IMG/VR virus record: IMGVR_UViG_3300012954_002084
Coordinates: 1 to 28,728 of that record
Strand: one strand, 5' to 3'
Length of the DNA stretch: 28,728 nt
Source of the DNA: a virus
The position numbers and the translations under genes were made by a program. Shown here piece after piece: positions 14,957-28,728 of the stretch. Under the pieces are notes generated by a model that worked only from the letters and a program-made list of their open reading frames with translations, ran no database searches and had not been told where the DNA came from. The number at the start of each line of letters is the position of its first letter. The first letter of the stretch is position 1.

Positions 14957-15301
14957 TTACCAGGAAATGTTCCAGGATATAGTATTATTTGAACTAGTAT
15001 TTGTGGTTATGTTGACACCATAACCTAAGTCAGTGAAGTATTTTTTGACATAATTAATTTGATCTAGTTTTGTGGGGTCAGTAACTGATCCGTTCCAAAC
15101 AAAATAGTAAACATTACTGTTTGTCATAGTAGTACTTGATACAACATTTGCAAATAGTACACCTGAGTCTATATTAGAAAAGACTTCAGATTCAATAGAC
15201 CTTATTTCACCATGAACTACAACATTGTTTCTGCTATCTGTTCTTGCCTGTGTGGCATTTACAAATATGTTTTTACTTCCTGTATTGTAACTACTTGGCA
15301 T
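14957..15301 (-). CDS. small virion-type protein (114 aa)
   Basis: Not recognised with certainty. The sequence is Ser/Thr/Asn-rich and beta-like (NIFVNATQARTDSRNNVVV; NVYYFVWNGSVTDP), without membrane spans or enzymatic motifs. ATG shares its A with the preceding stop (TAATG), so it is coupled to the 115-residue gene. Composition and place within the structural block suggest a virion component such as a neck or decoration protein. Confidence 0.75.
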   Translation of the reverse strand: MPSSYNTGSKNIFVNATQARTDSRNNVVVHGEIRSIESEVFSNIDSGVLFANVVSSTTMTNSNVYYFVWNGSVTDPTKLDQINYVKKYFTDLGYGVNITTNTSSNNTISWNISW

Positions 15302-15648
15302 TATAACTCCGATTTAATATCTTGCATAGCCTGATTGCCAGCCATATCGCCTACATCAACAGTTGGCTCAACTTCAGTATCTATGTCTGCACCTAACTCA
15401 TCTTTAGGTACAATTACATTGTCATCAATACTATTAGCAAATCCACTTTTGTTTACTGCTAATTTTAATTGGTCTAAACTTAAATTACTGTATCCATTTG
15501 CACTTAGTATTTTAAGAAATTTTTCTGTTGAAACTTTTTTAATATCTCTGGACATAGCAACAGTCAAGACATCTTGGATTTTTGCTAACAAACCTGCTTC
15601 AAAATCTTCGTCTTTTTCTGGTAATGCTATGACTTCGTTTATGAGCAT
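15301..15648 (-). CDS. small helical protein of the virion block (115 aa)
   Basis: Not recognised. Begins MLINEVIALPEKDEDF and is helical through residue 75, with a small winged or helical domain (RDIKKVSTEKFLKILSANG; LDQLKLAVNKSGF). The C-terminal 35 residues are acidic and Pro/Asp-rich (DIDTEVEPTVDVGD). It begins 1 nt after the end of the 442-residue gene, and both share an acidic Val/Asp/Pro tail, suggesting related assembly or core functions. Confidence 0.75.
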   Translation of the reverse strand: MLINEVIALPEKDEDFEAGLLAKIQDVLTVAMSRDIKKVSTEKFLKILSANGYSNLSLDQLKLAVNKSGFANSIDDNVIVPKDELGADIDTEVEPTVDVGDMAGNQAMQDIKSEL

Positions 15649-15649
15649 T

Positions 15650-16978
15650 TTACACCTCTACAGGTGCTCTACCTAGTGGCTCTTCTTCTGGTCCTGCCGC
15701 CGCTGGTTCATTTACATCTACTGCTGGCTCTTCTACGTCTACTGGTGCATCCATATCATCTATTGGGCTATCTGCACCAAGTGGATCTTCTATATTACCC
15801 ATATCGTCTGAACCGGACATAATTCCCATGTCTTCACCTGTAATACTACCCACTAGTTCGTTTACACCGTCTTTGGCCTGTTTTGCACTTTCTAATGCTG
15901 AACTTAAAGTTTGCTCTGCTGATTCCTTAAACTGAGAGGCCTTGTCAGCACCAAACTCATGTATCATTTGGTCTGCAATAGCAGGAATATCTTCGTTTAC
16001 CATTCGGCCTAATCTTTCAACATGGTCTTGAATGTCGTCTGCTAATGCTCTAACAGCCATTACAACCTCTGCTTCTTCAACTGATGTACCTTCTATTTCC
16101 TCTGATAACATTTCGTCTATAATGTCATCAAACATGCTTTCTTTATTAATTTTGTCAGCATTTTTCTTTTTAATTGTTACAGGGTGCATTTTGCCTGAAC
16201 CTTCAGGATATTCAAATTCTTTATCGCCTCGTTCTTCAGCATCTGCGGCCGCAACTGCAAAGTTTTCTTTTGCAATTTTGGCACCAAAGAATTTAATACC
16301 ATCTGCAACTGCTTCTTCTTCAAGACCATTTAGGAAGCCAACTACTGATTCTTTTGTTTTACCACTTGCTGTTGCAAATGCATTTAGTTTTTCTTCAATA
16401 GCATCCATGCTATTTGCATCTGTAAGTTCTATTCCGATTTCTTTAGCAAGTTCGCTTAGTAGGTATTCGTTTAGTTCTGTATTTGCTCCTTCTGTTGCAA
16501 TCTCTTCTAGTGATTCACTATGTGAACTACAACTTGCTTCATACTGTTTAGCCGCCATCATTACTATAGGAAGTGCCCACTCTTCACTGTGAGCTGTTGG
16601 ACCTTTTTTAAAGTCTATCATGCATTGTGTTACTGCTTCATTAGAAGTACAGCCACTATTCATAAGGCGTTCTACTTCTGCATACAGTTTCTCTTTCATT
16701 TTGATATTTGCTGGTGATTCAGCATACATGCCTTCTGCAATCATAGTTTTAGCAATATCTTTTATGCCAAGATACTTTGCGTACTCTGGTGCTAACTGAA
16801 ATTGTTTGCTAGTGTCTTTAATTTTAATAATTGCCTGCTCAGATAACCTAACTAAATTTTGTAAATCACCTTTCTTAGGATTATTATTTTTTAAAGTCAT
16901 ACCAAATTCTTCACTTAGTAACTTATTAATTCTGTCAATTTTTGTTTGACCCTGTTGATTTAAATCTCTAATAAACAT
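15650..16978 (-). CDS. virion structural/core-type protein with acidic tail (442 aa)
   Basis: A largely helical protein in the late structural block. Residues 1-150 contain alternating helices (IDRINKLLSEEFGM; LVRLSEQAIIKIKDTSKQF). The middle is Glu/Ala-rich, with coiled-coil-like stretches around 190-260 and 320-370. The last 60 residues are very acidic and rich in Asp, Pro and Val (DDMDAPVDVEEPAVDV). Such acidic helical proteins in T4-like phages often belong to the prohead core or are virion structural proteins of unknown role; I cannot assign a T4 gene number. It has a late box and an AGGAAG ribosome site upstream. Confidence 0.75.
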   Translation of the reverse strand: MFIRDLNQQGQTKIDRINKLLSEEFGMTLKNNNPKKGDLQNLVRLSEQAIIKIKDTSKQFQLAPEYAKYLGIKDIAKTMIAEGMYAESPANIKMKEKLYAEVERLMNSGCTSNEAVTQCMIDFKKGPTAHSEEWALPIVMMAAKQYEASCSSHSESLEEIATEGANTELNEYLLSELAKEIGIELTDANSMDAIEEKLNAFATASGKTKESVVGFLNGLEEEAVADGIKFFGAKIAKENFAVAAADAEERGDKEFEYPEGSGKMHPVTIKKKNADKINKESMFDDIIDEMLSEEIEGTSVEEAEVVMAVRALADDIQDHVERLGRMVNEDIPAIADQMIHEFGADKASQFKESAEQTLSSALESAKQAKDGVNELVGSITGEDMGIMSGSDDMGNIEDPLGADSPIDDMDAPVDVEEPAVDVNEPAAAGPEEEPLGRAPVEV

Positions 16979-17638: not shown

Positions 17639-17923
17639 CTATCCGGCGTGCATGGCCGCCATGTGTTTTTTGTATTTTTTTGTACCTTTTTTATGAGGGG
17701 ATTTGCCTTCTTTTTTGACACAATTTGGTACTGTTTTACCAAACATTTTCTTTGTACCTTTCTTTTCGTATCCTTTCCAACATCGTGTGCCTTCTTTCGC
17801 TTTCTTCTTTTTCTTTTTAACTACAGGTCCAGGACGTTTAATTATGTTGCTGTTCATAGGCTGAGCAACTGTGGCTATCCCACCTGACGATGTTGTTTCA
17901 TTAATGATATCTCTGATCAGCAT
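17639..17923 (-). CDS. small basic protein with CWKGY motif (94 aa)
   Basis: Begins MLIRDIINE, an N-terminus common to several small virion-block proteins here. Residues about 48-72 carry RCWKGYEKKGTKKMFG followed by VPNC, a Lys-rich module with two cysteines that I recall from marine T4-like phage proteins. The product is strongly basic, so DNA contact inside the head is a fair inference. ATG has no Shine-Dalgarno site; a late box GATAAATA ends 5 nt before it, overlapping the stop of the SGNH gene. Confidence 0.75.
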   Translation of the reverse strand: MLIRDIINETTSSGGIATVAQPMNSNIIKRPGPVVKKKKKKAKEGTRCWKGYEKKGTKKMFGKTVPNCVKKEGKSPHKKGTKKYKKHMAAMHAG

Positions 17924-19045: not shown

Positions 19046-19053
19046 TATTTATT
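19046..19053 (-). promoter_or_regulatory. late-type box (AATAAATA) 5 nt before the SGNH gene start
   Basis: AATAAATA-GTAGT-ATG, nearly the same string as before the CWKGY gene (GATAAATA-GTATT-ATG). It lies in the 12-nt gap after the ParB-like gene and overlaps its stop by one base. Confidence 0.45.
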
Positions 19054-21410
19054 TAGGATTTTTTGCGACCGCTCTTCATGTTGGCACACCAGTGATACAT
19101 TTTTGCCTTTTCTCCACTGCTGTTTTTTGCTTTTTTGCGTAAACTGGTTACTGAACCTTTGCAACTTGCACCTGCTCGTTTTACTCTGCCTGGACGACTC
19201 TTACCTTTCTTTTTGCCGTCTTTAAAATTTTCGCCTACAAAGGCTTGTATTGTTTTAGCACCTTGTTTCTTTAATGCTTGATGTCTATGGTTGCCATCAA
19301 TAATGGCGCCATTTTTATGAACTACAATAATAGGAGAATCACTTAAATTACTCTTAAACAATTTATCTATATTATTTTGATCTCCTTGCCAACCATCTGC
19401 TGGTGATACAGAGTCTATAGGAATGGTTTTTAATTTAAAAACTTTATTTTTACCTACCCAATCAAGCCAATCACTGTGAAAATTGTTTCCTGTACCAGTT
19501 TTATCCATATCCTTTTTTAACTTTGATAACATTTGATCTAATGTTAAAGTTGGAGTAAATGCTGGATCATTAAAATTTTCATCTATACTCTCTGGTACAA
19601 ATGCTGGTAATACTTTTTTGCCAACACGTTTTGCTTGATAAACTCTGTGAAAGCCATCAAGTATTGTTCTGCCATCAGCATGTACATATATTGGTTCATC
19701 TAAATCTACACCTACACTAGGATCAGTATCTATTACTCTACCAAATTGGTCATCTATTGCTTGATCGTCCAAATCTGCTACATTTACTGTAGACAATTTC
19801 CAATTTTTGCTATCAATATATTTTCTTACTGCTGGGCTAAAGTTCTTTTTCTTCCTCCTAGCAAAAATTTTATTAAATTTATCTTGATCAAACCAATCAT
19901 TAACGTTTTCGTCTATTTCATCTGGATCTTTAGGATAATGTCCTGTAGCACTATGATAGTATAACAGTTCTGCGGCATCAGGATAACCTTCTGGGTCTAT
20001 ATATTTGGGGTCTGTTAATCCGTCTAAATAAACTTCTCCATCTTCAAAATGTTGATTACCATAACTGGTCATTATGCGATACTGTTTACCGTCTGTGCCT
20101 TTTACTATAACACCATCTTCTTGATCTACCTGTGCCTGGTTCACCCATTCATCGTTGGCTCTGTCTGCCTCATCTGGTGAGAAGAAAGGTTTCACAGCAT
20201 GTGGATTCATTCCCACTACATCTTCTATAATGTCTTCTGTAATTCCAAACTCAGGCATATTGATATAAATACCATTTATTTGTACTTTAATGTGTTCTGG
20301 TTTAATACCATTTGATAAAGTTTTTTCTATTTCCCTACTAAGTTGATATTGATCCTTAATAAATCCTGCTTTACTGGGTATCCAGTCAGGTTTAACTCCT
20401 GGTGCAGGAGATATAAACACATGTACTACAATATTATCTTTAGGTGTTTTATTATTAGGGAAGTTTCCTTGTATAAGATCTCCTTCTTGTACAGACCCTG
20501 GTAATAATTTTGCTCTAGTGTGCAGGTTACCATCATATATACTATCGAATGGTATCTCTTTTTTGGCAACTGTATCATAACCTATTACTCTGTTTGGTAT
20601 TTTTTTAGCAAGATTTTGCCAAATTTTGTGCCCTGCAGGTGTTTGACTAGTAAAACTATATAGTGGTTGTTTGTATGTGTTGCTTACTGCTATGTAAACA
20701 GGTACAGCAAGGCCTTTACCTCTAAACTGAGAATGTGTTACTACATTTGTTGTTATCCAGCCATCTAAACCATTTTTAAGTGTAAGCAAAAAGATAGGTT
20801 GCTCCTGATTTATAAGAAAAATATGTCTAGAAGTACCATTATCATAAACTTCATTTTTACTTAATCCTGGTATAGGTGCTTTCTTTATATATGCATTTTC
20901 CCCAAATTTTTGACTGCCTGATGCATCATTATATATAGATGTTATATAACTATTATCATCTTCATTGTTGTCGTATGGTTTATCCTTGCCTATTTCCTTT
21001 AATTTTTGCTGTAGTTTTGCTTTTAATTGTTCTTCTATTGTGGGCTCATCACTGGCAGTATCACTATAATAATCTATAAGTTCTTCCACAGTGGCATTTA
21101 CTTTAAGGACTTTTACTTTGTCCATGTCAAGACTTCTTGCAACATCATATCTGTGATGTCCGTTCACAATATAATTGTTTTTGTCTACTATTATAGGACG
21201 TATGCTACCGTCTTGAAAACCTCGCATAGCCTTATCGTGCATACCATGTACTCTTTGACTTTGTACTGGTTTTAATTTGCTAAGTTTAATTTTTTTCTTT
21301 TGGAACTCAAATCCACCATCTTCCAGATTGTTTTTTCTGATTTGAGGCATGATATTTCTATCAAACTCTTTGTCTAGTTGAGGCCTGTCTTTAAGCTCGA
21401 ATAATCGCAT
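19053..21410 (-). CDS. triple ParB/sulfiredoxin-like protein with inserted GNAT-like domain (785 aa)
   Basis: Start at ATG 21410, sharing a base with the SOD gene stop (TAATG). Three ParB/Srx-type units are visible by the pattern P-I-hydrophobic-V...I-x-(N/D)-G-x-H-R: NGHHRYDVA near residue 84, DGFHRVYQA near 587 and DGNHRHQAL near 706. Residues about 170-290 resemble a GNAT acetyltransferase: ITTNVVTHSQFRGKGLAVPV with the acetyl-CoA loop RGKG (230-233), then SQTPAGHKIWQNL. The C-terminal 50 residues are Lys/Arg-rich with a Cys pair (GASCKGS, YHWCANM), a basic module. ParB-type domains bind CTP or act as nucleases in phages. Function is unknown; a packaged DNA-associated enzyme is inferred. 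Confidence 0.8.
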   Translation of the reverse strand: MRLFELKDRPQLDKEFDRNIMPQIRKNNLEDGGFEFQKKKIKLSKLKPVQSQRVHGMHDKAMRGFQDGSIRPIIVDKNNYIVNGHHRYDVARSLDMDKVKVLKVNATVEELIDYYSDTASDEPTIEEQLKAKLQQKLKEIGKDKPYDNNEDDNSYITSIYNDASGSQKFGENAYIKKAPIPGLSKNEVYDNGTSRHIFLINQEQPIFLLTLKNGLDGWITTNVVTHSQFRGKGLAVPVYIAVSNTYKQPLYSFTSQTPAGHKIWQNLAKKIPNRVIGYDTVAKKEIPFDSIYDGNLHTRAKLLPGSVQEGDLIQGNFPNNKTPKDNIVVHVFISPAPGVKPDWIPSKAGFIKDQYQLSREIEKTLSNGIKPEHIKVQINGIYINMPEFGITEDIIEDVVGMNPHAVKPFFSPDEADRANDEWVNQAQVDQEDGVIVKGTDGKQYRIMTSYGNQHFEDGEVYLDGLTDPKYIDPEGYPDAAELLYYHSATGHYPKDPDEIDENVNDWFDQDKFNKIFARRKKKNFSPAVRKYIDSKNWKLSTVNVADLDDQAIDDQFGRVIDTDPSVGVDLDEPIYVHADGRTILDGFHRVYQAKRVGKKVLPAFVPESIDENFNDPAFTPTLTLDQMLSKLKKDMDKTGTGNNFHSDWLDWVGKNKVFKLKTIPIDSVSPADGWQGDQNNIDKLFKSNLSDSPIIVVHKNGAIIDGNHRHQALKKQGAKTIQAFVGENFKDGKKKGKSRPGRVKRAGASCKGSVTSLRKKAKNSSGEKAKMYHWCANMKSGRKKS

Positions 21411-22519
21411 TAGCCAACTTCTCTTAAACGTATTACGCCACAACCAACTCTGTCACCAGCATTACCTGTTTTGAGACTTTCCTCATCTCCACCTTTGCCT
21501 AAGTCATCTTCATCTGCATGTACAACTATTGCTCTACCTACTACGTCTAATAAATTTACTCTTTCTGCCTTTATTTGAAATTTAGAAACACCTGAATCAT
21601 CTGCAGTAATATTTCCTAAATCTCCAACATGGCCTTCCTGTAGTCCACCATGATCAACATCATCTGGATTATAATGACCACCTGCACTATCACATCCGTC
21701 ACTTAAATCTCCATATTCATGTATATGTAAACCATGTTTGCCAGGTGTTAAGCCTTTAACTATCCCTTGTATAATTGTTGCACTACCAGGCTTCTGAATA
21801 AATTTAAACATGGCTTTTACATTATCTTCAGCATGTTCTAGTGTTGCTATTGCTTCAACTGTTTCCTCTGCTTCTGATAAACGATTTACACGTTCACATT
21901 GGCAACCTTTGGACTTTGTTTTAGGACATGGAGTAATTTCTTGTATTGCTTCATATATTCCCTTTCCAAATTTATATTGCTGTTTATTTTTTTTCTTTTT
22001 CTTTTTTTTCTTTTTGGATTTTTTATAGGGTGCCATTGTGCCTATGCCATAAAATCCTCTGCTTACAGGAGCATCACTACTAGGTGTGGAATCGGAGGAT
22101 GGGGCAGAACTATCTCCTGAACTACCACCGTCTGCAGACCCTCCGTCTCCACCTGAACTTGTTGCACCGCCTGTACCACCTGTACCGCCAGATCCGGCTC
22201 CTCCAGAGCCTCCAGCACCAGCACCGCCTCCAGCACCAGCACCGCCTCCGGCACCGCCGCCTCCACCTCCGGCACCACCGCCACCGCCTCCGCCTCCGCC
22301 TCCTGCGGATGCTCTAAGGTTTACTGGTACGCCAAAATGTTGTAATAATGCGATTGCGTCTTCTTTATACTGGACTAATCCTGCTAGTCTAAGTCCTGCG
22401 ATATATTTTTTAATTTCTTGTGGTGTTTTTAATTTTTTCTTATCTATTTCAGATTGCACAAGATCTCTCATCATTTCTGTATTTCTATCCATTTTTCCTA
22501 GTACTTCATTTATATTCAT
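21410..22519 (-). CDS. sodC: Cu/Zn superoxide dismutase fused to Gly-rich and Lys-rich N-terminal region (369 aa)
   Basis: The C-terminal 145 residues are a complete Cu/Zn SOD, which dismutates superoxide. Copper ligands His265, His267, His282 and His334, zinc ligands His282, His290, His297 and Asp300, disulfide Cys276-Cys360 and guiding Arg357 are all present. Before it come a helical N-terminal domain (1-65), a Gly/Ala/Ser linker (about 73-150), a Lys run (166-178) and a short Cys segment (CPKTKSKGCQC). Two sites fit the T4 prohead-protease rule (I/L)-x-E before Ala: IYE190-A191 and LSE216-A217. Cleavage there would release the SOD inside the head. There is no signal peptide. ATG overlaps the giant gene's stop as ATGA. 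Confidence 0.92.
   Translation of the reverse strand: MNINEVLGKMDRNTEMMRDLVQSEIDKKKLKTPQEIKKYIAGLRLAGLVQYKEDAIALLQHFGVPVNLRASAGGGGGGGGGGAGGGGGGAGGGAGAGGGAGAGGSGGAGSGGTGGTGGATSSGGDGGSADGGSSGDSSAPSSDSTPSSDAPVSRGFYGIGTMAPYKKSKKKKKKKKKNKQQYKFGKGIYEAIQEITPCPKTKSKGCQCERVNRLSEAEETVEAIATLEHAEDNVKAMFKFIQKPGSATIIQGIVKGLTPGKHGLHIHEYGDLSDGCDSAGGHYNPDDVDHGGLQEGHVGDLGNITADDSGVSKFQIKAERVNLLDVVGRAIVVHADEDDLGKGGDEESLKTGNAGDRVGCGVIRLREVG
21986..22024 (-). repeat. poly-Lys codon tract
   Basis: A run of AAA/AAG codons (Lys residues 166-178 of the SOD fusion) seen as a T/C-only stretch on the plus strand. A slippery tract of this kind could cause frameshifts or sequencing errors. Confidence 0.8.
22166..22303 (-). 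repeat. GC-rich poly-Gly/Ala codon tract with 18-bp tandem copy
   Basis: Encodes residues about 73-118 of the SOD fusion, almost only Gly, Ala and Ser. It is far more GC-rich than the rest of the window. A perfect 18-bp direct repeat lies at 22209-22226 and 22227-22244, followed by degenerate copies, so it probably grows and shrinks by slippage. Confidence 0.85.
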
Positions 22520-25500
22520 GATCTTACTCCTATTTGTGGGTAAGGATATATATTATTTGTGCTAACAAGATAAATTGTGTTTACATTTAAGTTTAAATCT
22601 TGTATTTCTTGTTCTGTTCTTACATAGTTAATAGTTTTTGTTTGTTTATCCATGAATATTATACCTTCAAGATCCCCTTCACTTCTCTTGATATTTAGAT
22701 AGTTTAAAATATTATACTTACCATATACTTGTCTAAATTCTGCATCATCTCCTGCATTTAATAATTTAAGTAGGGTTTCAATTTGGGTTTTATCTAATCC
22801 TGTATTAGTTGCTTGTAATATACCTGCTGTACTGCGTAATGCTTTTTTCTTTCTTTCTGGATCACTTGTTAGTTTAGGATTTTGCAATAGGCTAATATGC
22901 ATAGCACTATTTAATCCTGTTGCAGGCATATTAGCAACTTCTTCCAAATCAGCAAAGTCTAATTTAAATCCTTCTACTTTACCTGACCAAGTAGAATCTG
23001 GTTGTACATGATAGTCTTTAAATCTGGCATCTTTTGCAGTTTTAGTTTTTAATTCTACATGGTTACCATCAATAAGTAAATCTCCTTTACCTTTACCTGA
23101 TCCAATGCCTTCTATTTTAGCACTCAATATTGAAAGTAAAAACTCACCAGCACCAATACCCTGACCTATAACATTAGATAAATCTTCTATAAATTCTGTA
23201 ATATAATCCTCTTTGCCATATCCTCTAAACACTTCTGAGAAATCATACTTACCACCAGATAATAATTTTTTAGTGTCTACAAGTTGATCTTTTTTCCATT
23301 TTGCAAGTAGTTGAGCACGTTCTAAATTTGTCATTTCTAAACTAGCAATCATTTTTGCAATCTTCAATTGATTCCTTTTTACTTCACTATCATCTATATC
23401 GTCTAACTGGGTAGTTATGCTTTTTAATCTGCCGCCTACACCCATATCATCTAATAAAGAATCTATGTACTGAACAATTCTATCTGTTTGCGAGTCGTCA
23501 TCAGGTAAATCTTCAATTTTTTTAATTACTTCATCTTTGCTTTCTTTTAATTTTACATGTTTTTTAACTTCAGGATGTAATTGACTATCTATATAAGTCT
23601 TTAAAACATTTCTTAAATCTGCTTGATCTCCACCCTCTCCTCTTACTAATCTAAAGTCTGACAGCATTTGTGGAACAGGTAATGCCCAATATGCCTCCAT
23701 TTGTTTCTTAAGATCGCCTGCCGGCATAGGCTCAGCAAGTAATTTGTTTAATAAGTAGGGTATGCTATTATCTGGTAGTGCATTACTGGCTGGCCCTTGA
23801 CTAACTTTACTTAAACTTTCGTTCATTTTTTTAGTTTTCTTTTTCATTTGGTTAATGTACTTTCTGTACACAGCCGCCGCTGATTTTTTTCCTGCCGCCT
23901 TAGCCCGTTGTTCCATAGCAATCGCGGCCTGTATTTTATGTGCATGTTTTTTACCTGAACCTCTGATTTTACTAACACTTGCTTTCGCATCTTTTACAGT
24001 GGCAAATTTTAGTCCTTTAATTGTGCCTTTGGGATTTTCGTCTGTGTACAAGTCGCTATGCTTTTTACTACCTGCTGGTTGTCCTTTTTTGCGTGGTATC
24101 CTCTTTGCTTCTGTTTTCTTTTTCTTTCCTGCACAATGAGCCTTCTGGCTAAACCCTTTTGGATTATTACAGTCTATACTTGACTTATATTTCTTACTCC
24201 ATTTTTCTAATACTGCTGAACTTTCTAAAATTACTAGTTGTTCTTCTAAGGGTAATTTTTCAAACTTATTGTAAACACTTTCTCTAGGATCTGAATTAAG
24301 TTCTCTCATTCTATTTTGAAGATACATTCTGCCTCTTGCTAAGTGGCCCTGGAAGTCATTTGGTTCTTCTCCTGCTTCTCTTTCTCTCATCATACTGACT
24401 AAAACAGCACGTTTAAATGTTTCATCATTTTGTTCATTTTTGAGAAATCCTACCAGTCTGTTTACGTCTGGTTGCACAATATAATTTTGCATACCATTCA
24501 TCATCATAGTATTAAAATCAAAATATTTGCTACGCATGTCTTGATAATCTTGTGTTGTTACATCGAATCCTGATTGATCATCTGCTGTAGGTTCAGACCC
24601 ACCATACATTTGACTTACATTATCACCGTCTCTAAAATAGTTTCCGGCACTTACAGTATAATTCTTTTGTATATATTCGTATGCGGCCTTAACTGCGGCG
24701 GCCCATCTTTCTATACCTATTGCTTCTGGATTTTCTGGGCGCCAGTTGTGATCACTATCATATTGATCATAAACTTTTTTTAGTAAATTAGGACCTTGGT
24801 CGTTTACACCTCTTTCAATTTTTAAGTAATCTGATAAGTTAGTCCAATTTGTTTTATTTGCTACTTGGTTGGATGAGGAATTATAGGAATCCATGTCTTC
24901 AACACCAGCCGCTTTTATCATACCATCTACATTATCCTGATAATTAAGTGGTAAATCAATGTCACCATCTACTATTCTTTTTAGTATATTTTCTAATGCC
25001 ACTTTAAAACTGTAATAGCCTTCACGGTCTTTCATGCCTTTTAGTTCTTTAGCAACAAGTGGTTTCATTTTAGGTGGATATAGATCCCAATCAAATGCAT
25101 TAAATATTTTATCTTCTGTTTCATCGCCATCTAAAGGATCCCACATCATGGCACTACCTCTATCAATAGGCTCACCACTCTTTGGATTTTTAAGCTCATC
25201 TTTATCAACAAGGTCCTTCTGTCCAGGCGCTCCTGATCTGCTATCACCTTTTTTAGTAATTTCTATACCTAATTTTTTTAGTTCTGTATAATTTTCTCCA
25301 CTTGCTCTTTCAAACTTATTGTTACCCAAGTAACCAAGATCTTGGAAAGGTATATCATATAGTTGCCTAAATCTTTTAAGTATTTCCTTGTAACCTTTTT
25401 TCCTCCAGGTGTGATAATAATTATTTGCTGACTCGAATTTCTGTATTAAATCTAATCCAGTATAGGCATCATCGGCCTGTGTATAGTGTGCGGCAGGTAT

Positions 25501-28500
25501 CACAAATATTTTTCCGCCTATGTTTACTTTATCATTAAAATGATCTAAATGATTATCTAAATAAGCGGCCCTGTCTTCATAATCTTCATCTGTAATTGTG
25601 TCATAAAAATCTTTGTTGATATATACATAACTGTGACTAGGAATATTAAATGTTGCTCTGGCTTTATCTCTAATATTTTTCTCAAAATCTTTGCTTTTCT
25701 TGTCTGCTACATTTTTGCCTGAAATTTCTTGCTTGAGATCTGTGAAACCTTCTGATTGAAATATTTTATCAAAATCTGTTAAAAACTTTTTATATGCTTG
25801 GAATCTTTTCTTTAATAGTGCCCTTACCTCATTTAGTTTGTAAAGATTATCATAACCTTGATCATTTCTAGCTCTATAATATCTGTCTAAATTTATAGCA
25901 CCTAGTACATAATCATCGTATGCACTTGCAAAATTATAGTCTTCTTCATTATCTATTTTAACAACTCTGTCTGAAATATTATTCCATCTTTCCAGATTAC
26001 CAACTGATAAAAACATTGGTCCATCTTCGTCAACAGTAGTATCACTTAGATTTTGAAACAATTCATCATCTGGCTTTAATTCTTTAATAAATTTATTGCC
26101 TATTTTCATTAATTGTTTTTGAAGGTTTTTGTATTTTTCCTCATCTGTATTTTTAATTTCCTTTAGATGAGTTAATCTGGTTCTCATTTTTTGTATGAGA
26201 TTCATTTGTACCACAGTTTCATATGGATCATCGCTTTTTATATTTGGATGATGATCCTTACTAGTAGGATGTTCATAATCATTATATGGCTCTAAAAATT
26301 TTAATAACTTTTTAATTGCACCTTTATTGGATACCATATTTGGTGTTATTAGTGCAGGATCATTATATCCACCTCTTTGTATCAATCTGTAAAAATCATT
26401 TTTCTGTCTGGATCTTCTTAAATCCTTTAATACCCTTTCTATTTCATTGTTCTCAAGTTTAGGATTTACAGTAATAATTATTTTTTGTAGTTTGTCCAGT
26501 TTTCCGTTATCCATGGCATCTTCGTGCTGGAAGAATTGCCACATGCCGTCCACAACGGGATCAAGATCTTGCATATCGAAAAACTCAGGACTATCTACAA
26601 CTTCTTTTTTAAATAATTGTAATGCACCTTTTTGTAACCTAATAATGTTTTCTTTATCATTTCTTGCAGTATCATTGCTAATACTTTTTATTAATACGTT
26701 ACTTAATTGCTCACCATCTAATTTTAATTCATTTGCATACTTTCTAAATGCACCAATATGTCTGGTTTTAGGTGTTTGCCTTGCATTGTTGTCTATAATA
26801 TTTTGTGCTAACAAATTAACTGCTCTAGCAAATCTATCTTGTGCTTTTTGTAATACTGCTGGTGCTCGTTTGCTTGGTGCTAAACTATCAGGCTCTATGT
26901 AACCTGTAATGCCTTCATCTTCGTTTATGCTTTCGCCCATCCAACTAGGATCTCTGCCTGTGCCATCTCTGTAATCGTCAATGCTTTTTTCCCATTTTTT
27001 ATCTGCATCTGGTTTACTGAGCTCTAAATATTCTTTATAATAATTTAAACTTGCTTCAAGTACATCTAGTATATCAAAATAATCTTTTTTACTAACAATT
27101 TCTTTTGCCGCATCAATTACAGGATGGTCTATTTCGTCATATCTTTTTGCACGTTCAGTATCTACTTCCTGACTTTTACGCATTACTCTGCTTAAGGCCG
27201 CAATATAATCTTTTCTAAATGCTTTTTCGTCATATCCTGCTTTCATTACAGTTGCATATCTTACAACTGCTTTAACTAATTTTTCATATGCCTGTACATA
27301 ATCATTACCTGCGATCCTAAATTCAATAAGTTCGTTTCCAGAAGATTTATCTTTTCCATAACCAGTTTTAAAATGGATACTGCTGAATTTTTCTTTGCTT
27401 ATACCTTTTGTTAGCTCTTTTTCTAATTCTAAGAAACTTTTATGGTCCCCTCGCCTCATACCTTCAGCATGTTTTAAAATATTTAGGTATTGGCTTCTAG
27501 CATATGAATTTTTTAGCCTATCAAATGTTTTCAGCAAATACTCATCGCCTAATAATAATGCCATTTTTAATCTATTTGGTTCTTCTTGAGAACTTCCTTG
27601 CCAACTCATAGTAACATGAAATCCTGTACTACGGTTAGATCCAAAGGCGGCATTGTCTTCTCCCCAATCTAGAAAACTTTTTACTTCTTGTAACATTTCT
27701 CTAGGACTACTGAATACTGGAGATATAATTTCTGCAGGTGCACCTTCATCAGGATCTATTGAACTATCTCTTTCCACAGCCCATTCATTTTCATCACCAC
27801 TAGTATCGCCGTAATCTCCTGATTCTGGATACGTTTTAAATTTGCTGTTTTCTTTTTGCCATATATGAAATTCATCTGCAACACCTTCTACATCGCCAGT
27901 TTGTCTGCCATAATCAAAACCAAAGTCATCTAGGAATTCGCTCATGCTGTAATATTGGTCACTTATATAACCGTCCATATCATAATCGCCTTCACATTCT
28001 ACTATAGCATCATCTAATAATTGATCTTCTTCGTTTGCTATTTCTCTAAGAAAGTCTTCATAATCTGCTTCATATTCTTCATTAATTAAGTCTCTGGCCC
28101 AGTTATCCATGTCCCAGCCATCTTCCTCACGATTTTCATATTCGACAGGATCTTCTTCTGCAAATTCTTCTTTGTATTCTTCAACAGCATCTTCTGTAGG
28201 CCCGACATCAGAATCTATAAAATCTCGAATAAATTCATCGTCATCTCTGTTGTCTTCTATCCAGGCGTCTATAATGTCTGGTAAATATTCGTCCATGGCT
28301 TTTTCACGAATCCAATCATTATAATAATCATATGCACTATCAGGTAAATCTCCAAATTCGTATTCCACATCTGAAACACTCATATCATCTACATATTCTG
28401 AATTACTACTACCTTCAACATTATACCAAAATGTTTCTGCCTCAAATCCGCATTTGACAGGAGCGTCTAAGGCCTCTCTGGCTACAGATTGCCTATTAAA

Positions 28501-28728
28501 ATTAATCTCAAATAATTTTGGATTTGCTTCTTTAAGTCTTTTTCTGGATAATTTTTTTATTTTTGCTTTAAGATCTTTTATTTGTAATTTTTTGCCTTTG
28601 CGACTTGCAATTTTACTTAACTTGCCTTCGTTCTTTTTAGAATTAACAAGCATGTTTCCTATCTCAGCACCTTTTTTAAATTTTTGTGTGTAATTTTGTA
28701 TAGTAGAAGATTTTTTGTCCGGTATTTC
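22516..28728 (-). CDS. giant virion-type protein: amidoligase-like domain, DUF5872-like basic module, PD-(D/E)XK-like C-terminal domain
   Basis: At least 2045 residues from ATG 28653, and the frame stays open for 25 further codons to the window edge, so the true start may lie outside. Numbering is from 28653. The N-terminal domain fits amidoligase_2 (glutamate-cysteine-ligase-like COOH-NH2 ligase): CGFEAETF (68-75), W291...D..S.D...APAEIISP (to about 310), STGFHVTMSW (about 340) and LIEFRIAGND (about 440); a very acidic Tyr/Asp-rich insert lies at about 90-260. The middle is helical and unrecognised. Residues about 1490-1610 hold DCNNPKGFSQKAHCAGKKK plus a DUF5872-like segment (SKKHSDLYTDENPKG). 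Near 1855-1870, GKGDLLIDGNHVELKTK matches the D-xn-ExK nuclease core. A particle role is inferred. Confidence 0.8.
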   Translation of the reverse strand, partial: EIPDKKSSTIQNYTQKFKKGAEIGNMLVNSKKNEGKLSKIASRKGKKLQIKDLKAKIKKLSRKRLKEANPKLFEINFNRQSVAREALDAPVKCGFEAETFWYNVEGSSNSEYVDDMSVSDVEYEFGDLPDSAYDYYNDWIREKAMDEYLPDIIDAWIEDNRDDDEFIRDFIDSDVGPTEDAVEEYKEEFAEEDPVEYENREEDGWDMDNWARDLINEEYEADYEDFLREIANEEDQLLDDAIVECEGDYDMDGYISDQYYSMSEFLDDFGFDYGRQTGDVEGVADEFHIWQKENSKFKTYPESGDYGDTSGDENEWAVERDSSIDPDEGAPAEIISPVFSSPREMLQEVKSFLDWGEDNAAFGSNRSTGFHVTMSWQGSSQEEPNRLKMALLLGDEYLLKTFDRLKNSYARSQYLNILKHAEGMRRGDHKSFLELEKELTKGISKEKFSSIHFKTGYGKDKSSGNELIEFRIAGNDYVQAYEKLVKAVVRYATVMKAGYDEKAFRKDYIAALSRVMRKSQEVDTERAKRYDEIDHPVIDAAKEIVSKKDYFDILDVLEASLNYYKEYLELSKPDADKKWEKSIDDYRDGTGRDPSWMGESINEDEGITGYIEPDSLAPSKRAPAVLQKAQDRFARAVNLLAQNIIDNNARQTPKTRHIGAFRKYANELKLDGEQLSNVLIKSISNDTARNDKENIIRLQKGALQLFKKEVVDSPEFFDMQDLDPVVDGMWQFFQHEDAMDNGKLDKLQKIIITVNPKLENNEIERVLKDLRRSRQKNDFYRLIQRGGYNDPALITPNMVSNKGAIKKLLKFLEPYNDYEHPTSKDHHPNIKSDDPYETVVQMNLIQKMRTRLTHLKEIKNTDEEKYKNLQKQLMKIGNKFIKELKPDDELFQNLSDTTVDEDGPMFLSVGNLERWNNISDRVVKIDNEEDYNFASAYDDYVLGAINLDRYYRARNDQGYDNLYKLNEVRALLKKRFQAYKKFLTDFDKIFQSEGFTDLKQEISGKNVADKKSKDFEKNIRDKARATFNIPSHSYVYINKDFYDTITDEDYEDRAAYLDNHLDHFNDKVNIGGKIFVIPAAHYTQADDAYTGLDLIQKFESANNYYHTWRKKGYKEILKRFRQLYDIPFQDLGYLGNNKFERASGENYTELKKLGIEITKKGDSRSGAPGQKDLVDKDELKNPKSGEPIDRGSAMMWDPLDGDETEDKIFNAFDWDLYPPKMKPLVAKELKGMKDREGYYSFKVALENILKRIVDGDIDLPLNYQDNVDGMIKAAGVEDMDSYNSSSNQVANKTNWTNLSDYLKIERGVNDQGPNLLKKVYDQYDSDHNWRPENPEAIGIERWAAAVKAAYEYIQKNYTVSAGNYFRDGDNVSQMYGGSEPTADDQSGFDVTTQDYQDMRSKYFDFNTMMMNGMQNYIVQPDVNRLVGFLKNEQNDETFKRAVLVSMMREREAGEEPNDFQGHLARGRMYLQNRMRELNSDPRESVYNKFEKLPLEEQLVILESSAVLEKWSKKYKSSIDCNNPKGFSQKAHCAGKKKKTEAKRIPRKKGQPAGSKKHSDLYTDENPKGTIKGLKFATVKDAKASVSKIRGSGKKHAHKIQAAIAMEQRAKAAGKKSAAAVYRKYINQMKKKTKKMNESLSKVSQGPASNALPDNSIPYLLNKLLAEPMPAGDLKKQMEAYWALPVPQMLSDFRLVRGEGGDQADLRNVLKTYIDSQLHPEVKKHVKLKESKDEVIKKIEDLPDDDSQTDRIVQYIDSLLDDMGVGGRLKSITTQLDDIDDSEVKRNQLKIAKMIASLEMTNLERAQLLAKWKKDQLVDTKKLLSGGKYDFSEVFRGYGKEDYITEFIEDLSNVIGQGIGAGEFLLSILSAKIEGIGSGKGKGDLLIDGNHVELKTKTAKDARFKDYHVQPDSTWSGKVEGFKLDFADLEEVANMPATGLNSAMHISLLQNPKLTSDPERKKKALRSTAGILQATNTGLDKTQIETLLKLLNAGDDAEFRQVYGKYNILNYLNIKRSEGDLEGIIFMDKQTKTINYVRTEQEIQDLNLNVNTIYLVSTNNIYPYPQIGVRS

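Follow-up and report, generated by a model that had tools for sequence, protein, structure and literature searches.

A movable Cu/Zn superoxide dismutase module as candidate prohead-processed capsid cargo in marine T4-like phages

The window analysed here is the whole 28,728-base IMG/VR record IMGVR_UViG_3300012954_002084, a fragment of a phage genome. It carries an open reading frame (ORF) of 369 amino acids which ends in a Cu/Zn superoxide dismutase (SOD) domain. The plus strand at 21410..22519 was found to be full of stops and the gene is read on the minus strand, where the ORF and its parts (residue numbers refer to the protein) are arranged as follows.

21410..22519, minus (22519→21410, end including the stop): 369-aa SOD ORF, made up of a targeting-like start, a helical domain, Gly/Ser and Lys stretches, a Cys peptide and the Cu/Zn SOD
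22493..22519, minus: capsid-targeting-like start MNINEVLGK, residues 1-9, of the form M-x-[ILF]-x-[DE]-[ILVF], which is enriched at gene starts
22310..22492, minus: helical domain, residues 10-70; together with the Gly/Lys part a separate gene in relative L005
22058..22309, minus: Gly/Ser-rich stretch, residues 71-154; also in relatives L005, L006 and L002
21983..22024, minus: Lys-rich stretch, residues 166-179, from the translation
21950..21958, minus: IYE, residues 188-190, before A191; fusion junction, not conserved
21896..21928, minus: Cys peptide CPKTKSKGCQC (C-x7-C-x-C), residues 198-208; found only with this SOD
21872..21880, minus: LSE, residues 214-216, followed by A217; candidate site of prohead-protease cleavage at the edge of the SOD, from its conservation
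21413..21871, minus: Cu/Zn SOD domain, residues 217-369 (the last ~150 residues), with all ligands kept

The SOD domain is apparently complete and of the SOD1 type, and dismutase activity is predicted from its intact features. Pfam Sod_Cu (PF00080) covers residues 237-363 with an E-value of 9e-41 and 139.8 bits against a cut-off of 28.9. The Cu/Zn ligands H265, H267, H282, H290, H297, D300 and H334 were observed to be invariant in the first five sequences aligned, as were the C276/C360 pair and R357, and in a profile alignment all of these residues of the window SOD correspond to human SOD1. The predicted model of residues 188-369 (predicted local distance difference test score 88) superposes on mammalian SOD1 at 1.1-1.2 A with a Foldseek E-value of 2e-17, and the window SOD is nearest to cytosolic SOD1 in both sequence and fold. 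The initial annotation had described a complete enzyme with its metal ligands, disulfide and Arg intact behind a helical N-terminus and poly-Gly and poly-Lys stretches, and each of these elements was found in the ORF.

Phage-borne Cu/Zn SODs also occur in the Salmonella prophages Gifsy-2 and Fels-1, whose SodC is exported, and the distant SodC matches in these two prophages would fit a secreted enzyme of lysogenic conversion. We consider this origin of the window protein very improbable. No hydrophobic leader or signal peptide was seen at the SOD starts (MNINEVL, MRAxEF etc.), and the stand-alone relatives begin right at the short motif. Signal- or lipobox-like starts, scored with a simple pattern, were found in 68 of the 77 cellular SOD genes, and the Cys peptide was present in none of the 77. 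The prophage proteins are of the SodC precursor type and share about 32-37% identity with the phage SOD, which is closest to SOD1 as described above.

A search for relatives on viral contigs gave 251 pattern matches, of which 235 encode a relative, and the best 80 were kept. A total of fifty-seven distinct SOD units, the window's included, were compared; identity among the phage units is 57-78% while cellular relatives reach at most 54% in their best segment. As judged from these sequences, the SOD is a movable module, found alone behind a short targeting-like start or joined to varied partners. In L005 the SOD is lacking and the Gly/Lys and ParB-like parts are separate genes; in the window the SOD is joined to the Gly/Lys part and the ParB-like gene stands apart; in L001 the Gly/Lys part is separate and the SOD is joined to the ParB-like protein; and in L006, as well as in L007, L017, L019 and L020, the SOD is joined to both. 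It forms its own gene in L002 (beside a Gly/Lys-ParB fusion), L003 and L004. Other fusions involve an HD domain (L058), a 5'-nucleotidase together with a GH19-like domain (L079), DUF5824 (L046), DUF6267 (L082) and a very large amidoligase-like-type protein (L053, 2404 aa in all). The Gly/Lys region, initially proposed as the targeting sequence of the SOD, is instead a separate module which L005 carries without SOD. The C-terminal helical segment of the L036 SOD ORF (NLDDLKRYIVELRLSRIIDHAEDARALW) resembles the N-terminal helical domain of the window protein (TPQEIKKYIAGLRLAGLVQYKEDAIALL), and from this likeness the helical domain may be a further movable module. SOD matches were also found on contigs binned as Pelagibacter and Rickettsiales genomes (L165, L166 and L167). 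These contigs are phage-like and carry the same cassette, and therefore no host origin is claimed; SOD-cassette phage contigs in bacterial bins could be mistaken for host SOD genes.

Two (I/L)-x-E sites before Ala had been proposed as prohead-protease sites, and both are present. The window protein holds seven [ILVFM]xE tripeptides in all, so that the bare presence of the two sites is near chance, but the conservation of LSE/A exceeds chance (a slash marks a junction). The position of IYE/A191 reads IYD, IYK or IYE in relatives. The Gly/Lys gene of L005 ends with FGKGVY and a stop whereas the fused form reads FGKGIYEAIQE, and IYE/A191 is therefore regarded as the scar of a fusion between the Gly/Lys and SOD genes. 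The boundary of the SOD itself, in contrast, reads [ILV]xE in 57/57 units: position 214 holds I, L or V throughout, position 215 is free, E216 is invariant and the next residue is A or S in 52/57. In the profile alignment the match to mature SOD1 starts 2-3 residues past LSE/A217, so cutting there would yield an ordinary SOD of normal length, and AEETVEAIATLEHAEDNVK is the semi-tryptic window SOD peptide that begins at A217.

Directly before this site lies the Cys peptide, which was missing from the initial annotation and in which C198, T201, C206 and C208 are invariant in all 57 units. A role as a general linker was rejected, as no gene-like occurrence without SOD was found in 1.9 Mb. Our guess is that the peptide loads copper or forms the disulfide and is later removed.

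The window protein starts with MNINEVL, which is targeting-like by sequence and shorter than the MKTYQEFIAE with which both T4 ipII and ipIII begin. In T4, targeting depends chiefly on residues 4 and 7, processing depends on residues 8 and 10, and the gp21 protease cleaves after L/I-X-E (PMC9026906). The start in L005 is MHIREVFDN, and other fused relatives start with MKINDLITE, MKIDDLITE or MRIKDFVNE. Among 29 distinct stand-alone SOD N-termini, which are related sequences and do not represent 29 independent events, 25 match M[KRL]h-x-[EDQS]-h. The same pattern occurs at 53/1024 (5%) gene starts of six long contigs and, among internal Met residues, at 20/5330 (0.4%). In the 197-kb SOD-bearing contig G040, nine genes have the short start, none of them more than 12 kb away from the SOD (9/29 near, 0/183 far).

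Sites of the same kind recur at the junctions of other modules. We looked for [ILVFM]xE within 6 residues upstream of a module, with random positions in the same proteins as the control. The motif was present in 19/26 contexts for WSxKYKKSI, 25/29 for NFxDGK, 16/18 for CWKGY and 6/6 for EGLRDWFGKS (73-100%), against a control of roughly 9-13% for these four modules. Smaller or weaker sets gave 7/10 for KKDACY (control 18%), 5/7 for GRIVKG and 1/3 for RIPRK. The ParB-like module gave 0/18 within the 6-residue window, because its nearest VEE or IEE lies several residues further upstream, and it is not counted as support. Since the junction Glu may partly belong to the modules, the result supports cutting at these junctions and does not prove it. 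The WSxKYKKSI-type module stands directly behind a T4-type start in the cultured cyanophage SynMITS9220M01 (MKTFKQFQE/GWSNKYKKSI) and behind a short start in the SOD phage L077 (MKATELTE/KWSKKYKDSI). A further multi-module basic protein, gp111 of the cultured phage P-TIM68 (L121:3464-4585), is encoded directly after the major head protein gene, and its junctions include MNE followed by GWSDKYKKSIDC.

The protein could also enter the virion and remain uncut there as a DNA-binding internal protein, its SOD shielding the packaged genome against superoxide formed photochemically in surface water. The SOD occurs together with Lys-rich and other basic modules (KGKSRPGR, WSKKYKKSI), and the internal proteins of T4 are likewise basic (PMC9026906). 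The conserved [ILV]xE boundary and the interchangeable fused and split states favour cutting, and we regard the uncut form as improbable.

The two SOD-bearing contigs found that approach genome length (221 and 197 kb) both encode the T4 gp21 protease and gp23. In the 221-kb contig (G006), gp21 was matched at 3e-27 and gp23 at 1e-98. Thirteen gp21-bearing contigs of at least 21 kb were tested for SOD, and the sole one above 70 kb, G040, has it. G040 carries a gp20-gp21-gp22-gp23 locus, and the N-terminus of its gp23 reads LSE/Q where the maturation cut would be expected. The initial annotation had looked to a gp21-like protease elsewhere in the genome; none was found in the 28.7-kb window fragment, and it is present in these two relatives. 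Contigs nearer to the window, such as G007 with its T4-type tail sheath, tube and head-closure genes, have no gp21 or gp23, as expected of fragments.

Virion proteomes of other phages provide a comparison for the starts. The part of the S-CREM2 study used here (PMC10665884, table 3) names 28 proteins detected in virions without an assigned structural role. T4-type starts were found in 5 of these 28 and in 1 of 167 undetected proteins (P=2e-4, a descriptive value because the pattern was defined after those S-CREM2 starts were seen). On the same listing, the five are a S-adenosylmethionine (SAM) hydrolase (MKDFDSFLEE), gp13 (MKDLHSFLTE), a kinase (MKRFDAFLTE), an NMNAT-like protein (MKNFSSFLTE) and gp136 (MQTFSMFFSE). 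The S-CREM2 NMNAT-like protein has a homologue (29%, 5e-20) in G040, an NMNAT-like protein that starts with MLLKELFLRE and is encoded ~2 kb from the SOD. NMNAT-like proteins have also been reported for virions of other cyanophages (PMC9602691). In the Cas9-like virion protein gp12 of S-CREM2 (L342:7704-10313, minus), a segment ..LRFASFMAE/AAVDQ lies ~17 residues in. It resembles a targeting start; by sequence, either translation may begin further downstream than annotated or the segment may be an internal tag.

Taken together, we favour the SOD as capsid cargo that is freed by the prohead protease in a variant of the T4 internal-protein scheme, with a probability of roughly 0.72. The short N-terminal start would take the protein into a T4-type prohead scaffold and a gp21-type protease would cut after LSE216, freeing a SOD1-like enzyme of normal length that starts at A217. 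The freed SOD would stay in the head with the DNA and enter the host at infection. The benefit would most likely lie in clearing superoxide early, within the first minutes of infection, or in clearing photochemical superoxide around the packaged DNA. The original proposal of a scaffold-targeted, head-packed and cut-free SOD thus finds support in the starts (25/29), the conserved boundary and the gp21 and gp23 genes of relatives, while its targeting role for the Gly/Lys part and its A191 site are dropped.

Several observations weigh against this capsid-cargo reading. Neither the window record nor the contigs of its closest relatives, all of them fragments, was found to hold gp21, and gp23 was not found on those of the closest relatives' contigs searched for it. 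The SOD-phage short starts are related, not identical, to the form in T4 and S-CREM2, and none of the S-CREM2 virion proteins has the short form. In G006, the SOD gene is not part of any cluster of genes with such starts. The Gly/Lys module looks DNA-binding-like, and a role of its Lys-rich stretch with DNA is guessed. A virion proteome of a SOD-bearing phage was not found, and this SOD type is absent from the cultured phages of the collection, where there are only distant SodC matches. The linker around E216 also has three Cys, one Thr and one Ala invariant, and so a structural reason for the conservation of E216 is possible.

The last point would suit an ordinary auxiliary enzyme that the infected cell produces, with a structural linker and with short starts that are simply a late-gene habit of the lineage. 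SOD is already known as an accessory gene, and the SOD of G006 is found among non-cargo genes such as one for an IscA-like protein. Nevertheless, unrelated modules share these starts and junction sites, and related proteins with T4-type starts were detected in virions. Fusions to Gly/Lys, ParB-like and 2000-residue proteins are hard to explain for a free enzyme unless they are cut, and we judge the ordinary enzyme to be unlikely.

The capsid-cargo reading may extend beyond the SOD. We lean slightly towards a general cargo-polyprotein system in marine T4-like phages, in which swappable modules would follow a targeting start with prohead-protease sites between them. The proposed modules are SOD, NMNAT-like, nucleotidase, FMN (flavin mononucleotide) reductase, ParB-like and basic DNA-binding peptides. 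With protease sites between the modules, fused and split genes would give the same set of injected proteins. It is doubtful whether, in addition, the Cys peptide serves in the cytosol for copper loading or disulfide formation and is removed afterwards in the head. The SOD cassette of G040 holds a second redox enzyme, an FMN reductase-like protein (L339:3031-3786, minus; PF03358, 6e-14) with a basic KMYHWCANMKSGKKKK tail.

The genes around the SOD in the window are as follows.

19053..21410, minus: ParB-like-domain protein, start MRLFELKDRPQL; its ATG and the SOD stop have one base in common, and it is SOD-fused in several relatives
22516..28653, minus: protein of at least 2045 aa with a weak amidoligase-like segment and a KWSKKYKSSIDCNNPKGFSQ module following VLE; its stop codon runs into the SOD start, and its relative in L053 is SOD-fused
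17639..17923, minus: 94-aa protein MLIRDIINE/TTSSGG with a CWKGYEKKG basic module; neighbouring candidate cargo
15650..16978, minus: 442-aa protein MFIRDLNQQG, matching the head/virion-structural family phrog_14154
15301..15648, minus: 115-aa protein MLINEVIALPE/K with a targeting-like start

Between the SOD gene and each of its two neighbours there is an overlap of one to four bases, and therefore the three genes are probably translated together. A tblastn search of cultured phages with the ParB-like protein and the KGKSRPGR module gave no match. The gp21 gene was not found in 14 contigs with the neighbouring 442-aa protein, all of which are fragments, and neither this result nor that for the window and its closest relatives is taken to mean that the gene is missing from these phages. 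Elsewhere in the window, all on the minus strand, are genes for a secreted copper protein of the plastocyanin/azurin family (592-1032; PF00127, 1e-15), which is the second copper protein of the record, a dihydroorotate dehydrogenase (1029-2255; PF01180, 5e-58) and a secreted EF-hand protein (2281-2532).

Some T4 internal proteins are brought into the host along with the DNA. T4 IPI-III and Alt share with the SOD phages the short N-terminal targeting-type start, the (L/I)-x-E motif and non-structural cargo, and gp21 and gp23 occur in the near-genome-length SOD relatives too. They differ in that the SOD-phage cargo would be a metalloenzyme, the start mostly has a shorter form (M[KR]hx[ED]h) and the main candidate site is internal, between polyprotein modules. 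Cyanomyoviruses are also T4-like marine phages with non-structural enzymes in their virions (the SAM hydrolase, kinase and NMNAT-like protein of S-CREM2; NMNAT of S-SCSM1), and they share an NMNAT-like relative with the SOD neighbourhood of G040; the portions of their virion lists consulted contain no SOD and assign no targeting sequence. A virion-packed enzyme of this kind is known from PBCV-1, where the late Cu/Zn SOD A245R is packaged and linked to less superoxide after infection (PMC7019647). The chlorovirus PBCV-1 infects algae and is unrelated in particle and packaging, and no cut module is described for A245R. T4 capsid targeting and gp21 cutting are thus known, as is a virion-packed SOD; what would be new is their combination in modular polyprotein form in marine T4-like phages. 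No literature report of this combination, of this SOD or of marine-phage targeting sequences was found in a search that did not extend to subscription papers.

If the capsid-cargo reading, with cut-apart polyproteins, is true on a large scale in marine relatives of T4, the enzymes that are present from the first minutes when abundant ocean bacteria are infected would be readable from sequence, and the start and junction rules would allow candidate virion cargo of uncultured phages to be listed easily. By our own estimate, 100 SOD copies in a cell of 0.04 fL would give ~4 µM, a useful dose. Ready-made delivery of SOD, if true, would open the part that superoxide plays early in phage infection to direct testing.

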